Assembly: GCA_016844945.1 (NCBI GenBank)
Contig: JAERTJ010000170.1
Span: 1 to 64,000, forward strand
Length of the DNA: 64,000 nucleotides
Direction: 5' to 3'
Source: Fidelibacterota bacterium
Lineage (GTDB): Bacteria; Fidelibacterota; UBA8477; JABMPR01
Below are positions 10,054 through 15,250 of this stretch, piece after piece. Every line of letters begins with the position of its first letter. Positions within the stretch are counted from its first letter, which is position 1. A program made the position numbers and the translations under genes. The notes beneath the pieces were generated by a model. It saw nothing but the letters and a program-made list of their open reading frames with translations. It did not search any database and was not told the DNA's origin.

Positions 10054-10205
10054 TCTGAACTAAAAGAAAATTCCTAACTAGGCAATCTTTTTTGTTACCA
10101 ATTTCATCACAATGGTTTCAATCAATTTGTCAGGTGCATTACCCAAGCCTGATTCTATATTGTTGCACGTTCATTACACATAAATAAAGTCTGAGGATGG
10201 TCTAT

Positions 10206-11468
10206 ATGTCGTTTCTACGTGAATTATTCATGAAATTCTGGAAGTTGGAGCTGTATTGGAAGGTATTTATCGGAATGGGCGCAGGTATTATTTATGCCCT
10301 GATACTAGGTGACAAAGCAATGAATGTTGCTCCGCTGGGTGATATGTTTATGCGATTATTGAAAATGGTCATTATTCCTCTTATTTTTTTCTCCATTACT
10401 TCAGGTGTCGCTGGAATTGGTGAAAACAAAAGTCTCGGGCGTCTGGGTGCTAAAACCTTTGGCTACTATTTTCTAACATCAATGCTGGCCATAATTATTG
10501 GGTTAACCTTGACCAATATTATTCAACCAGGTGTTGGCGTCGATATCAACGCAGGTGGCAAGGGCTTTGATCCATCCAGTTTGACCCAACCGGGAAGTTT
10601 GGGAAATATCCTCATCCGAATGATTCCGACCAATCCCATTCAGGCCGCAGCGAATGGTGACGTACTCGCCATTATTTTCTTTTCTATCATCCTGGGAATG
10701 GCAATCACGGCTCTACCTGAGCCACAGTACAAAGTTACTAGAGATCTGTTCGATACCTTTTTTAAAGTCATGATGAAAATGACTCAAGGTGTTATTCTTT
10801 TTCTACCCATCGGTGTGTTTGGACTCATTGCCAAGGCAGTTTCCAGTACTGGTTTTACGCTATTTAAAGCCGTAGGATGGTACATGGTTACCATTGCATC
10901 CGGTCTGACCCTGCACATCTTTCTGGTATTGCCCATTGTGTTTTGGCTACTTACCAAAATTAACCCCTTGAAGCATTACAAAGCCATCGCATCAGCAATG
11001 GCCACAGCCTTCTCAACCAGCTCATCGGGTGCAACCTTACCTGTGACCATGGATGCAGTTGAGAATAGAGCTGGTGTATCAAATAAGGTCACCAGTTTTG
11101 TGCTTCCTCTGGGAGCAACCATCAATATGGATGGGACAGCCCTTTACGAATGTGCAGGTGTTCTTTTCATTTCACAAGCTTTGGGATTTGACCTCACGTT
11201 TACTCAGCAGTTTGTGGTCGTAATCACCGCCTTCCTGGCCTCTGTAGGTGCTGCAGCTATTCCCTCAGCAGGGTTGGTCATGATTTTCATTGTTCTTGAT
11301 GCCGTTGGTTTAGGGAATCACCCCGAGGCAGCCATCATCGTGGGAACCATGCTGGCAGTTGATCGCCCCCTGGATATGTTCCGTACAGTGGTAAATATTA
11401 CCAGTGACACTATGGGTGCTGTTATCGTCGCCAAGTCTGAAGGTGAGGACGTTCTCTCCGATAAATAA
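10206..11468 (+). CDS. Dicarboxylate/amino acid:cation symporter (DAACS, GltP-like)
   Basis: A 420-residue inner-membrane symporter of the glutamate/aspartate/C4-dicarboxylate family. Visible signatures are the serine-rich hairpin loop (STSSSGATLPVTMDAVE), NMDGTALYE of the cation/substrate site, and the late AVDRPLDMFRTVVNITSD with the conserved Asp/Arg/Asn substrate contacts. An ATG at 10197 is also in frame, but GAGG abuts it directly and is 9 bp from the ATG at 10206, so the latter is the better start. It is monocistronic, followed by the candidate 6S-like RNA. Confidence 0.93.
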   Translation: MSFLRELFMKFWKLELYWKVFIGMGAGIIYALILGDKAMNVAPLGDMFMRLLKMVIIPLIFFSITSGVAGIGENKSLGRLGAKTFGYYFLTSMLAIIIGLTLTNIIQPGVGVDINAGGKGFDPSSLTQPGSLGNILIRMIPTNPIQAAANGDVLAIIFFSIILGMAITALPEPQYKVTRDLFDTFFKVMMKMTQGVILFLPIGVFGLIAKAVSSTGFTLFKAVGWYMVTIASGLTLHIFLVLPIVFWLLTKINPLKHYKAIASAMATAFSTSSSGATLPVTMDAVENRAGVSNKVTSFVLPLGATINMDGTALYECAGVLFISQALGFDLTFTQQFVVVITAFLASVGAAAIPSAGLVMIFIVLDAVGLGNHPEAAIIVGTMLAVDRPLDMFRTVVNITSDTMGAVIVAKSEGEDVLSDK

Positions 11469-11615
11469 ATCCAGTTAATTGTCCCACGGATTTAAGAGAA
11501 TCTCAGGGTTTACTCTACCCATTATAAAGGTGCATTTTTAGATGTAGGACTTGAGCTTGTCATGCGCTAAATTTGGCGCATTGGGGGAAATTTTGGGTGC
11601 TTTTTTTAAACTTTG
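11469..11615. other. Intergenic leader between symporter gene and candidate ncRNA
   Basis: No coding sequence is supported. A 6-bp hairpin (ATGCGC/GCGCAT, 11562-11581) and a T-tract at 11601-11607 may form a weak terminator for the symporter gene. I could not find a convincing promoter for the RNA that follows. Confidence 0.4.
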
Positions 11616-11790
11616 ACTGCAATGATGCTCGGCATTTTTTGAACGAGAACTTACCAACGGGAACCTAATCTCCTTGCTGCTAAGGCAGGCCTTTCCCTCC
11701 CCCCAGGGATCAAGGAAGTCTGATCTTCAAGGGCGGTGCCCACCGTGAATAAACACGGTTCAAAAACGTCACATTGTTGCAGTTATTTTT
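11616..11790 (+). ncRNA. Candidate 6S-like RNA (rod-shaped ncRNA with terminator tail)
   Basis: About 175 nt that fold into a long rod. The closing stem pairs 11616-11627 with 11772-11783 (12 bp, two wobble pairs). After a small internal loop, 11636-11644 pairs with 11758-11766 (TTTTTGAAC/GTTCAAAAA). A large open region follows, with a small hairpin on its 3' strand (CCGTG/CACGG, 11743-11758). The terminal arm pairs 11671-11676 with 11728-11733 and 11690-11698 with 11705-11715. A T-rich tail (11783-11792) follows. A closed end, central bubble with a 3'-side hairpin, and distal arm of 175-185 nt is the architecture of 6S RNA, which sequesters sigma70 RNA polymerase. The pairing is read directly; the identity is inference. 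Confidence 0.5.
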
Positions 11791-11825
11791 TTACCCGATA
11801 TTCAAGCATTTGCTGGATATTGAGA

Positions 11826-13763
11826 CTAATCCAGGTTAAATATTTCCACAGCTTCTAAGTCGCCAGATGGCGTAATTCCAAATACCTTCATATAAAAAGC
11901 GTATTCACTTTCGATGGCTTTCACAATGGTAGTGGCTCGCCTAAAACCATGAGATTCACCCCCAAAGGGAAGATAGGCCACAGGTATTCTGTTCTGTTTT
12001 AAGGCAGCTACCATGGATTCTGCCTGCTCCGGGGGTACTACAGGATCCTCTAGACCTTGTAAAAAAATGACAGGACACTTGAGTTGATCCGCATGGTTGA
12101 GAGGTGAACGGTCGATGTAAGTCTCCTTCGCTTCTGGATAGGGTCCCACCAGTTGATCCAGATAGCGGCTCTCAAATTTATGAGTATCCTGCGCCAGCGT
12201 GGTCAAGTCACCTACCCCATAATAGCTAGCTCCAGCTTTGAACACATCTGAGAAGGTCAGGGCAGCCAGGGTTGTATATCCACCTGCACTGCTTCCCTTA
12301 ATGATTAGTCGATCTGGATCTACTTCACCTTCGCGGACAAGATGTTGGGCTGCGGCTGCACAGTCTTCAACGTCTCTTATTCCCCAGGTTCCTTTTAACC
12401 GCTCCCGATATGCTCGTCCAAAACCCGTACTTCCACTATAATTTACATCTACAACAGCAAACCCTCTCAGTGTCCAAAATTGAATACCAGGACTGAAAGC
12501 CATTGAGCTATAGGCAGTTGGTCCACCATGGCTCAATACGATAAGCGGGGGCTTATCATGCTGAGGGGCTTCAAAGTCTGGATTGCAAGGTGGATAGTAC
12601 CAGGCATAAGTTGCTTCATCAGGATGTGATTCAAAACTGATGAGTTTTGGTTGCGAAACATTTCTGATGGAAATCTCCACATCAGAAGATCGTTGCAGAA
12701 TATCCAGTTCTCCGTTCTTAAGATTCATGGAAACAACAGCGCCAGGAGCGCTATCCGTGTACCCCAGGAAGGCAATACGGTCTCCCGATCCCCTCACCTG
12801 GTCTATGACTGAGTAGGGAACATCTATTCTGTTAAAGGACTGATTTTTAACATCTATATGAATCAGTTTTGATCCTTCCAACTCCCTGTATGTGGCAACC
12901 AATTCGCCTGTCCTCAATATGGTGTAGGTACTCATTCCAAAAACCCATTGGGGTAAGCCAAATTCAGCATCCATCTTTAGAATGCAGGTAGAAATGCCTG
13001 AGGAGTAGTGATATAGATTCCACCAATTCGATCGATCTGAGACAAAGTAGATGCTACCATCAGGATCCCACAGAGGTTGAAAAATTGACTCATTCTCACC
13101 ACCGGCGATGCATTCAACTGCTTCCGGGTTTCCCTTTTCATCAAGAGATGCCAACCACAACTGAGAACTGTCCCAGGGCATATCCGGTAAATCCCAAGTA
13201 ATAAACAGGAGCTGACTTCCATCAGGACTGAGTTGAGGATTAGCATAAAAATCGTGCCCTCCAGCAATAACATACTGCTCCCCATTATCACCCAAAGGAA
13301 TACGTACTACCATATTTTGCACATCATCTGTTCTGGCATGATCCTCAGCTATGGCAAAGAGGCAATTTCGCTGCTCATCTATCAACAGATCTGCATATCT
13401 AAAGCCCTGATGGTCAGTGATTTGGCGTGCTTTGTTGGCGTCAATTACTTCATAAATCTGCTGATCTTCATTATTGATATAGAAGCATCGGGAATTATCA
13501 GTCAGGAAAGCTCCTCCACCATATTCATGCGCCCGAGTACGGACATCATGACCGGGGTCTCCATATTCCTGGATAGTCCCACTGATTGACCATCTCATGA
13601 GAGCTGTCCGACCCTTTTCATTGGGTCTTCCCTCTGTCCAGAAAACTTTGTCACCATCTACCTGAATCTGTCCCAATCTGAGACTGCTCTGCACCATTGA
13701 TTCCCCAGTGAGAGGTGAATCCCAGGCACCATAAGGTCGGATTTCGCGGTTTTTTTTCATCAT
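11826..13763 (-). CDS. S9-family prolyl oligopeptidase-like peptidase
   Basis: A 645-residue peptidase with an N-terminal beta-propeller (about 1-370; strands such as LLFITWDLP and IYFVSDRSNWWNLY) and a C-terminal alpha/beta-hydrolase domain. The catalytic triad is visible: S492 in KGSSAGGY, D573 in GLEDPVVPP and H605 in GESHGF. HGGP, the oxyanion motif, lies upstream of the serine. It resembles dipeptidyl/acylaminoacyl peptidases that release short peptides; no signal peptide, so probably cytoplasmic. The ATG at 13763 overlaps the stop of the upstream glycosyltransferase gene in an ATGA junction, which suggests coupled translation and argues against the longer reading from 13784. Confidence 0.9.
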   Translation of the reverse strand: MMKKNREIRPYGAWDSPLTGESMVQSSLRLGQIQVDGDKVFWTEGRPNEKGRTALMRWSISGTIQEYGDPGHDVRTRAHEYGGGAFLTDNSRCFYINNEDQQIYEVIDANKARQITDHQGFRYADLLIDEQRNCLFAIAEDHARTDDVQNMVVRIPLGDNGEQYVIAGGHDFYANPQLSPDGSQLLFITWDLPDMPWDSSQLWLASLDEKGNPEAVECIAGGENESIFQPLWDPDGSIYFVSDRSNWWNLYHYSSGISTCILKMDAEFGLPQWVFGMSTYTILRTGELVATYRELEGSKLIHIDVKNQSFNRIDVPYSVIDQVRGSGDRIAFLGYTDSAPGAVVSMNLKNGELDILQRSSDVEISIRNVSQPKLISFESHPDEATYAWYYPPCNPDFEAPQHDKPPLIVLSHGGPTAYSSMAFSPGIQFWTLRGFAVVDVNYSGSTGFGRAYRERLKGTWGIRDVEDCAAAAQHLVREGEVDPDRLIIKGSSAGGYTTLAALTFSDVFKAGASYYGVGDLTTLAQDTHKFESRYLDQLVGPYPEAKETYIDRSPLNHADQLKCPVIFLQGLEDPVVPPEQAESMVAALKQNRIPVAYLPFGGESHGFRRATTIVKAIESEYAFYMKVFGITPSGDLEAVEIFNLD

Positions 13764-15250
13764 AATCCCCGGTATCCAGTACATTCATAGATATCTATCT
13801 TGCGTACAGGTTTGCCAAAATTCTCAATTTCTATAGATCTGATTTGCTCAACTCGATCAAAATAAGGTTCAATTGCTTTTGCCTTGAATCGATATTCCCT
13901 TCGATCATCAACTGCCAGAATTCCAGTTTTGCCCAGTAGCTTTTCCTCTTTCGCCCAGATGTCAAATTGAAGGGCATGTTTCCCAATAATATCCTGAGCG
14001 TAGGTTCGAGGTTGATTTTTCATATAGAATTTTAACAGGGAGCTGGCTTTGTAGTTTGTGCTATATACAAATGTGGAGTGCCCCTTTGATTCGAGTGAAT
14101 CCTGAACAATCTCAACCTCCGCGGCGGCATGCTTCCAACCACTCCACGTGTTGCCCTCGCCAAGCGGGATATCAGGAACGGCAACAACTGAGATTCCGAT
14201 ACCCAGGAAGATCAGGGATGAATAGATGCCCAGCTTCATACGTGGGAGTCGTGAAGGTGTTTGGAACAGATAATAGATTCCCAAAATAATTAAGGACCAG
14301 TAAGCCGGGGCCAGCCAGTTCATTTTCACCAGACTTCGTAAACTCACGGCTATAAAGAAAAGGGATGTCACCATACCACTGCTTAACAGAAGTAAGATTT
14401 TGTCTTCCAGACCTGAAAGAAGTTTTCTTCCATAGCGATTTAAAGCTGCAAATGTGAGCACAAACAGGTAAGGTGAGAGAATAAAAAACTGTGAACCAAA
14501 TAATTCTCCTAAAAAACGAAGCTCCCATTGCCCCATACCAGATGTTCTCCTAGCCCCCTGAAAAGCAAAGGAAATCCAATCATGCTGGATATTCCATATC
14601 AGTACAGGTGAAAACACCAGGATTGCCAGTATTACACCCAGATAAGGATGTGGCGTTAACAACCATTTCCGTTGTTGCTTTGAAACCAGTGTAAACAAGA
14701 GCACCGAGGGTACCAACATGATGCCTGAGTACTTCCCCAACCAAGCCATTCCCATAAAGAATCCGGCGATATACCACCATTTTGCATTATCCGTTCTGAT
14801 GAGCATCCATAAGGCATAAATACAGGCTGTCCAGGCGAATACAAGGGGTGTATCCGGAGTAATCACAAACCCATACAGTTCAAAGACGATAGTGGCATTT
14901 AGCGCAAGAAGTGTCCAAAAGGTTTGGTTGGTATTTTCAAACATCTCCTGTATCATCTTCGCCCAAAGTATATTCATACCTAGGAACCACAGATTTGCAG
15001 CCAGTTTTATTCCGAAAATAGTTTGGCCAAAAATAGCCGTTGTTAACCAAATGCTGTAGCTGGCAAGGGGTGGATGGTCAAAATAGGATAGGGACAGATT
15101 TCTACTCCAACTCCAGTAGTAAGCCTCCTGAGGAGTCAGCGGCAAAATGATTGCCAGGATAAGTCGAAACAGGGAAAATCCCAATATCACTTTCCATGCA
15201 TTCAAGGATATACCCAAATAACTATCTCTCACTTCAAATTTGTAAGTCAT
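13760..15250 (-). CDS. Membrane glycosyltransferase, ArnT/PMT family (GT39-like)
   Basis: About 496 residues with roughly ten hydrophobic helices. Near the N-terminus is PQEAYYWSWSRNLSLSYFD followed by HPPL, the acidic loop typical of lipid-linked-sugar glycosyltransferases of the PMT_2/ArnT group, and TPDTPL further on. These enzymes move a sugar from a polyprenyl-phosphate donor to an acceptor on the periplasmic face. GGAAGGA just before the ATG at 15250 makes this the likely start; the ATG at 15271 has no ribosome site. It is translationally coupled to the S9 peptidase gene, an unusual partner. Donor and acceptor are unknown. Confidence 0.85.
   Translation of the reverse strand: MTYKFEVRDSYLGISLNAWKVILGFSLFRLILAIILPLTPQEAYYWSWSRNLSLSYFDHPPLASYSIWLTTAIFGQTIFGIKLAANLWFLGMNILWAKMIQEMFENTNQTFWTLLALNATIVFELYGFVITPDTPLVFAWTACIYALWMLIRTDNAKWWYIAGFFMGMAWLGKYSGIMLVPSVLLFTLVSKQQRKWLLTPHPYLGVILAILVFSPVLIWNIQHDWISFAFQGARRTSGMGQWELRFLGELFGSQFFILSPYLFVLTFAALNRYGRKLLSGLEDKILLLLSSGMVTSLFFIAVSLRSLVKMNWLAPAYWSLIILGIYYLFQTPSRLPRMKLGIYSSLIFLGIGISVVAVPDIPLGEGNTWSGWKHAAAEVEIVQDSLESKGHSTFVYSTNYKASSLLKFYMKNQPRTYAQDIIGKHALQFDIWAKEEKLLGKTGILAVDDRREYRFKAKAIEPYFDRVEQIRSIEIENFGKPVRKIDIYECTGYRGL

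Follow-up and report, generated by a model that had tools for sequence, protein, structure and literature searches.

The intergenic element at positions 11612–11791 (+ strand) of the window, by which we mean the whole 64,000-nucleotide stretch of DNA analysed here, is a single-copy, covarying, 6S-shaped RNA orthologous to the 6S RNAs that Rfam recognises elsewhere in the phylum. We conclude, with a probability of roughly 0.95, that it represents the 6S RNA gene (ssrS) of the organism, in a divergent form which is hard to detect. 6S RNA is a well-known small RNA that parks the bacterial RNA polymerase once growth stops, and the element is a new divergent member of this already known family, probably with an ordinary function. 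Judged by its named relatives, the host genome is a MAG of Candidatus Neomarinimicrobiota (Marinisomatota/SAR406).

The bounds of the gene derive from two covariance models, R1 (216.8 bits at this locus) and R2 (166.7 bits), and the interval of 11616–11790 given in a preliminary description of this DNA, made from the letters alone, was right to within a few bases. In the genus, identity to the window per 20-nt step amounts to 0.80–0.96 inside 11612–11791 versus about 0.3 directly downstream, while the 80 nt upstream exhibit intermediate identity (0.57–0.69); this profile delimits the RNA gene at the level of sequence conservation. A DNA similarity search of 100 relatives located the element in 17 of 18 further members of the genus, at 78–97% identity; the exception, G008, is 63% complete. 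Other families yielded short matches as well, of which L027 at least is due to chance. R1 and R2 searches of the organism’s own genome recovered one 6S copy, and no second copy was found there when sought. Weak R1 matches on the opposite strand (14–30 bits) reflect the near-palindromic rod and not second genes. SRP RNA and RNase P RNA were considered as identities and rejected, as RF00169 and RF00010 do not match at the locus and the genome carries its own copies of these RNAs on contigs C37 and C143; a tRNA or tmRNA reading was likewise rejected.

Concerning the family assignment, comparison with the Rfam 6S model (RF00013, gathering cut-off 46.4 bits), by which the preliminary description had proposed to verify its identification of a 6S-like RNA, gave a divided answer. 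The window’s own sequence does not match RF00013 at the gathering threshold, nor at E ≤ 10, and no Rfam family matches it above threshold. Several same-genus orthologues score 24–41 bits, which is significant though below the cut-off (L013, 40.7 bits with E = 7.1e-5; L017, 34.1; L011, 31.9; L009, 31.8; L007, 24.4), and in other families of the phylum it is exceeded by orthologues from 19 of 199 genomes, with up to 85.3 bits, their matches spanning the full RF00013 model (positions 1–187) and including the 6S-type conserved core. At these loci 6S was the sole Rfam family with a significant match. In the reciprocal direction R1, constructed from 17 genus sequences only and blind to Rfam, recovers the Rfam-positive 6S loci of the phylum in alignments that cover the entire model, with E-values between 4.1e-8 and 2e-21. 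Since E. coli ssrS was found neither by R1 nor by R2, the family link runs from the window to its genus, from there to the phylum, and from the phylum to Rfam 6S. The failure of the window sequence to reach threshold for RF00013 or any other family would suit a different structured RNA, such as a lineage-specific sRNA that resembles 6S only in outline (closing stem, bubble and arm), but this reading is very improbable: orthologues that exceed the Rfam cut-off already refute it, and the reciprocal model searches land on the same loci. The 6S identity proposed from the letters is therefore upheld by these Rfam-positive orthologues together with the covariation described below.

Folding of positions 11600–11800 with RNAfold yielded −57.8 kcal/mol against −45.8 ± 4.0 kcal/mol for shuffled sequences (z = −3.0), with none of 200 shuffles as stable as the native sequence. 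The closing stem pairs 11614–11627 with 11772–11785 through 14 pairs in the fold, or 12 when the two terminal pairs are discounted, and is followed by a short helix of 3 bp (11631–11633 with 11768–11770) and by the 9-bp P2 or downstream-duplex helix, whose 5’ strand UUUUUGAAC (11636–11644) pairs with GUUCAAAAA (11758–11766). The 5’ strand of the central bubble (11645–11658) leads into an imperfect terminal arm (11659–11741) composed of a GGG-A-ACC/GGU-G-CCC base, UCCUUG/CAAGGG, AGGC/GUCU and CCUU/AAGG segments and an apical UCCC/GGGA, and the 3’ strand of the bubble holds a small hairpin, CGUG-AAUAAA-CACG (11744–11757), which is predicted for the free RNA (p = 0.99) and displays a compensatory change in L016. 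A T-rich stretch (11783–11791), T-rich in every genus member read, follows the closing stem and is a probable intrinsic terminator; a generic terminator scan passed it over, the enclosed loop greatly exceeding the length that the scan permits. The 12-bp closing stem, second stem of 9 bp, small hairpin on the 3’ bubble strand, imperfect distal arm and T-rich tail that had been discerned by eye are all present, and the RNAfold check that had been suggested shows the region to fold better than its shuffles. The single-sequence minimum-energy fold splits the distal arm into small hairpins, and imposing the comparative 6S arm on the window sequence gives −55.1 kcal/mol, 2.7 kcal/mol above that minimum; in the comparison of sequences it is the 6S arm, rather than the small hairpins, which is backed by covariation. 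The apical loop of the arm ranges in size from a few bases in family f9 to an additional long hairpin in L018 (L018:1500–1696) and L052, which suggests, from the sequences compared, that the tip of the terminal arm is free to grow.

Covariation was assessed in two alignments. In A4, a structural alignment of 48 sequences fitted to the structure of R1 and hence biased in its favour, standard pairs occupy 96.1% of cells and two-sided compensatory changes occur in 45 of 54 pairs, with a covariation score of 0.530 versus 0.200 when shuffled and 0.07–0.09 when pairing partners were slid. In A1, the genus alignment produced by MAFFT without structure, two-sided changes are seen at 8 pairs versus 1.8 in shuffled and 0–2 in slid controls. 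RNAalifold, run unaided on A4, predicts the same helices. Two-sided changes affect 4 pairs of the closing stem on A1 and all 12 of its helix pairs on A4, every pair of the short helix (3/3) and every pair of P2 (9/9, with 96% of cells paired), while in the terminal arm (helices 5–8 on A4) 92–100% of cells are paired and 17 of 24 pairs change on both sides. The anatomy conserved across the alignment comprises the closing stem, the short helix, P2, the bubble, the GGG-A-ACC/GGU-G-CCC base, an arm of variable apex and the 3’-bubble hairpin; the rod characteristic of 6S RNA, with its closing stem, large central bubble and terminal arm, is therefore present and carries compensatory changes. The search for such changes in related genomes, also put forward in the preliminary description, accordingly returned strong covariation.

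By mimicking an open promoter, 6S RNA binds the housekeeping holoenzyme, from which it is released by pRNA synthesis (PMC8876501). By analogy with the family, the window RNA would accumulate as growth slows and mimic an open promoter, its central bubble lodging in the active site of RNA polymerase with the housekeeping sigma factor, so that transcription is restrained. When nucleotides return, the polymerase would copy the 5’ bubble strand and P2, the 5’ strand of which is part of the presumed template, into a short pRNA. T11651, which corresponds to the invariant column T40 in A1, is a plausible start base on account of its invariance in the genus, and the pRNA would likely begin opposite it as 5’-AGUUCUCGUUCAAA; 5’ starts predicted to fit this model are 5’-AGUUCUCGUUC... 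or GUUCUCGUUC.... Its synthesis would open P2 and allow the 3’-bubble hairpin to grow from 4 to 6 bp, upon which the enzyme would be released. When the template bases were blocked in silico, P2 opened and the 3’ hairpin lengthened from 4 to 6 bp, the probabilities of its two outer pairs rising from 0.62 to 1.00 and from 0.45 to 0.87, so that a hairpin in competition with P2, as looked for in a 6S RNA, is predicted. Comparable rearrangements have been reported in the 6S RNAs of E. coli and B. subtilis (PMC8876501), and the lengthening fits a release switch, although single-sequence folding constitutes weak evidence. Both polymerase binding and pRNA synthesis by the window RNA are inferred from its membership of the 6S family.

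It is possible, but in our estimation unlikely, that 6S RNA functions differently in the Marinimicrobia as a lineage-specific variant, tuned for example to a primary sigma factor with the FCB-type TAnnTTTG preference, in which case the bubble and AU-rich P2 would imitate a different open promoter and release would follow a rule unlike that of the E. coli and B. subtilis models. Highly unlikely is a 6S-shaped RNA that would bind core polymerase and template no pRNA, in the manner of Ms1 of Actinobacteria. Ms1 provides the precedent, as it is structurally related to 6S RNA yet binds the core enzyme (PMC9130861), but it has been reported from Actinobacteria, whereas the Rfam matches obtained here cover the 6S model from end to end, the 5’ bubble holds an invariant candidate template base, and the predicted competition between P2 and the 3’ hairpin is as in 6S RNA.

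The convergent genes on either side of the 6S RNA gene encode an SDF (sodium:dicarboxylate) symporter upstream (10197–11468, + strand; PF00375, 413.5 bits) and an S9 prolyl-oligopeptidase-type peptidase downstream (11826–13784, − strand; PF00326, 170.1 bits). An SDF symporter gene immediately precedes 6S in the genus of the window, in a different genus of the same family (G019) and in three other families (L044 in one, L045 and L059 in a second, L057 in a third), with Pfam confirmation for the window, L044, L045 and L057. L044 and L045 exceed the RF00013 cut-off, and L044, L045, L057 and L059 are Rfam-positive or near-positive, so the shared symporter gives independent support for 6S orthology. 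Downstream of 6S an HflX-type GTPase is often encoded (Pfam-confirmed for L045, judged by eye at other loci), and a MazG-type gene is situated upstream in two family f9 loci (Pfam-confirmed for L033). Locus L110 also has an SDF symporter directly upstream of its 6S gene, and the arrangement thereby recurs in several distant families. A bidirectional terminator between symporter and peptidase and nothing more, which the convergent neighbours, the T-rich + strand flank and the A-containing stretch upstream of the closing stem might suggest, deserves practically no credence, as 180 nt at 80–96% identity with a covarying arm and a bubble hairpin exceed what a terminator needs and other families have the RNA between other genes, for instance with MazG or HflX neighbours. 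The closing stem of the 6S RNA may serve in termination as well.

The conserved 80 nt preceding the gene are probably a leader or promoter, to judge from their conservation. They contain a candidate promoter element, TAAATTTG (11568–11575, + strand), for which the upstream alignment offers weak evidence: it resembles the TAnnTTTG promoter element of Bacteroidota, most members of the genus keep an element of this type about 36–45 nt before the 6S gene (alignments of L002–L018), and TTTG is found 19 nt before it in several genus members. The promoter claim is weakened because TAnnTTTG is no commoner across the window than in shuffled sequences and because a sigma-70 promoter scan returned nothing useful.

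At the level of the phylum, R2 detects 6S RNA in 186 of 245 genomes, nearly always as a single copy, and in 78 of 94 good-quality genomes and 77 of 84 genera; its training sequences came from fewer than 50 of the matched genomes, the rest being new. RF00013 at E ≤ 1 matches 62 of 199 genomes of the phylum. Family f7, which has reduced genomes (assemblies of 0.4–1.0 Mb), showed no 6S in any genome listed, ten of which were re-searched with sensitive settings, and its g8 genomes of 0.7–1.0 Mb and up to 98% completeness (e.g. G027, G045 and G051) are without a match detectable by R2 or RF00013. Since the SRP RNA (RF00169), which served as positive control, was likewise undetected in family f7, loss of 6S is not claimed there: either both RNAs disappeared or both became too diverged for the models to recognise. 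In family f22, genome G223 carries two distinct full-length 6S matches with comparable scores (C4:2978–3157 and C43:331–515), the second representing either a second 6S gene or contamination.

These data extend 6S RNA to almost an entire phylum, one that is widespread in the sea and of which hardly any members have been cultured; RF00013, the standard model, passes threshold there in fewer than one genome in ten. The remark that 6S RNA is poorly described in this part of the tree holds as far as it was checked, as a literature search, outside which many subscription papers lie, returned no paper joining 6S RNA with Marinimicrobia or SAR406. Apparent absence of 6S from annotated deep FCB genomes can be a failure of detection, and the alignments can both repair RF00013 and serve as a growth-state marker in ocean metatranscriptomes.

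The Rfam families 6S-Flavo and Bacteroidales-1 are 6S-type RNAs from bacteria of the FCB group, and in the Rfam scans no locus matched either of them. With 6S/SsrS RNA as represented by RF00013 the element shares its length of about 180 nt, the closing stem, P2, the central bubble with a hairpin on its 3’ strand, the imperfect terminal arm with its GGG/CCC base, a CCCACC motif and the T tail; it differs in an AU-rich P2 and in a sequence too diverged for the model to score. Unlike the zapA-ssrS-fau order of E. coli, its neighbours are the SDF symporter and S9 peptidase genes, and elsewhere HflX. It has a 6S-like shape in common with Ms1 of Actinobacteria, but no sequence-family link was found to that RNA, which associates with core polymerase lacking the primary sigma factor (PMC9130861). 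As in B. subtilis 6S-1 RNA, the small 3’-bubble hairpin would already be formed in the free RNA (PMC8876501), but here, unlike in 6S-1, it overlaps P2 and is predicted to lengthen when P2 opens, a predicted behaviour nearer in its logic to E. coli 6S RNA, with its extended release hairpin.
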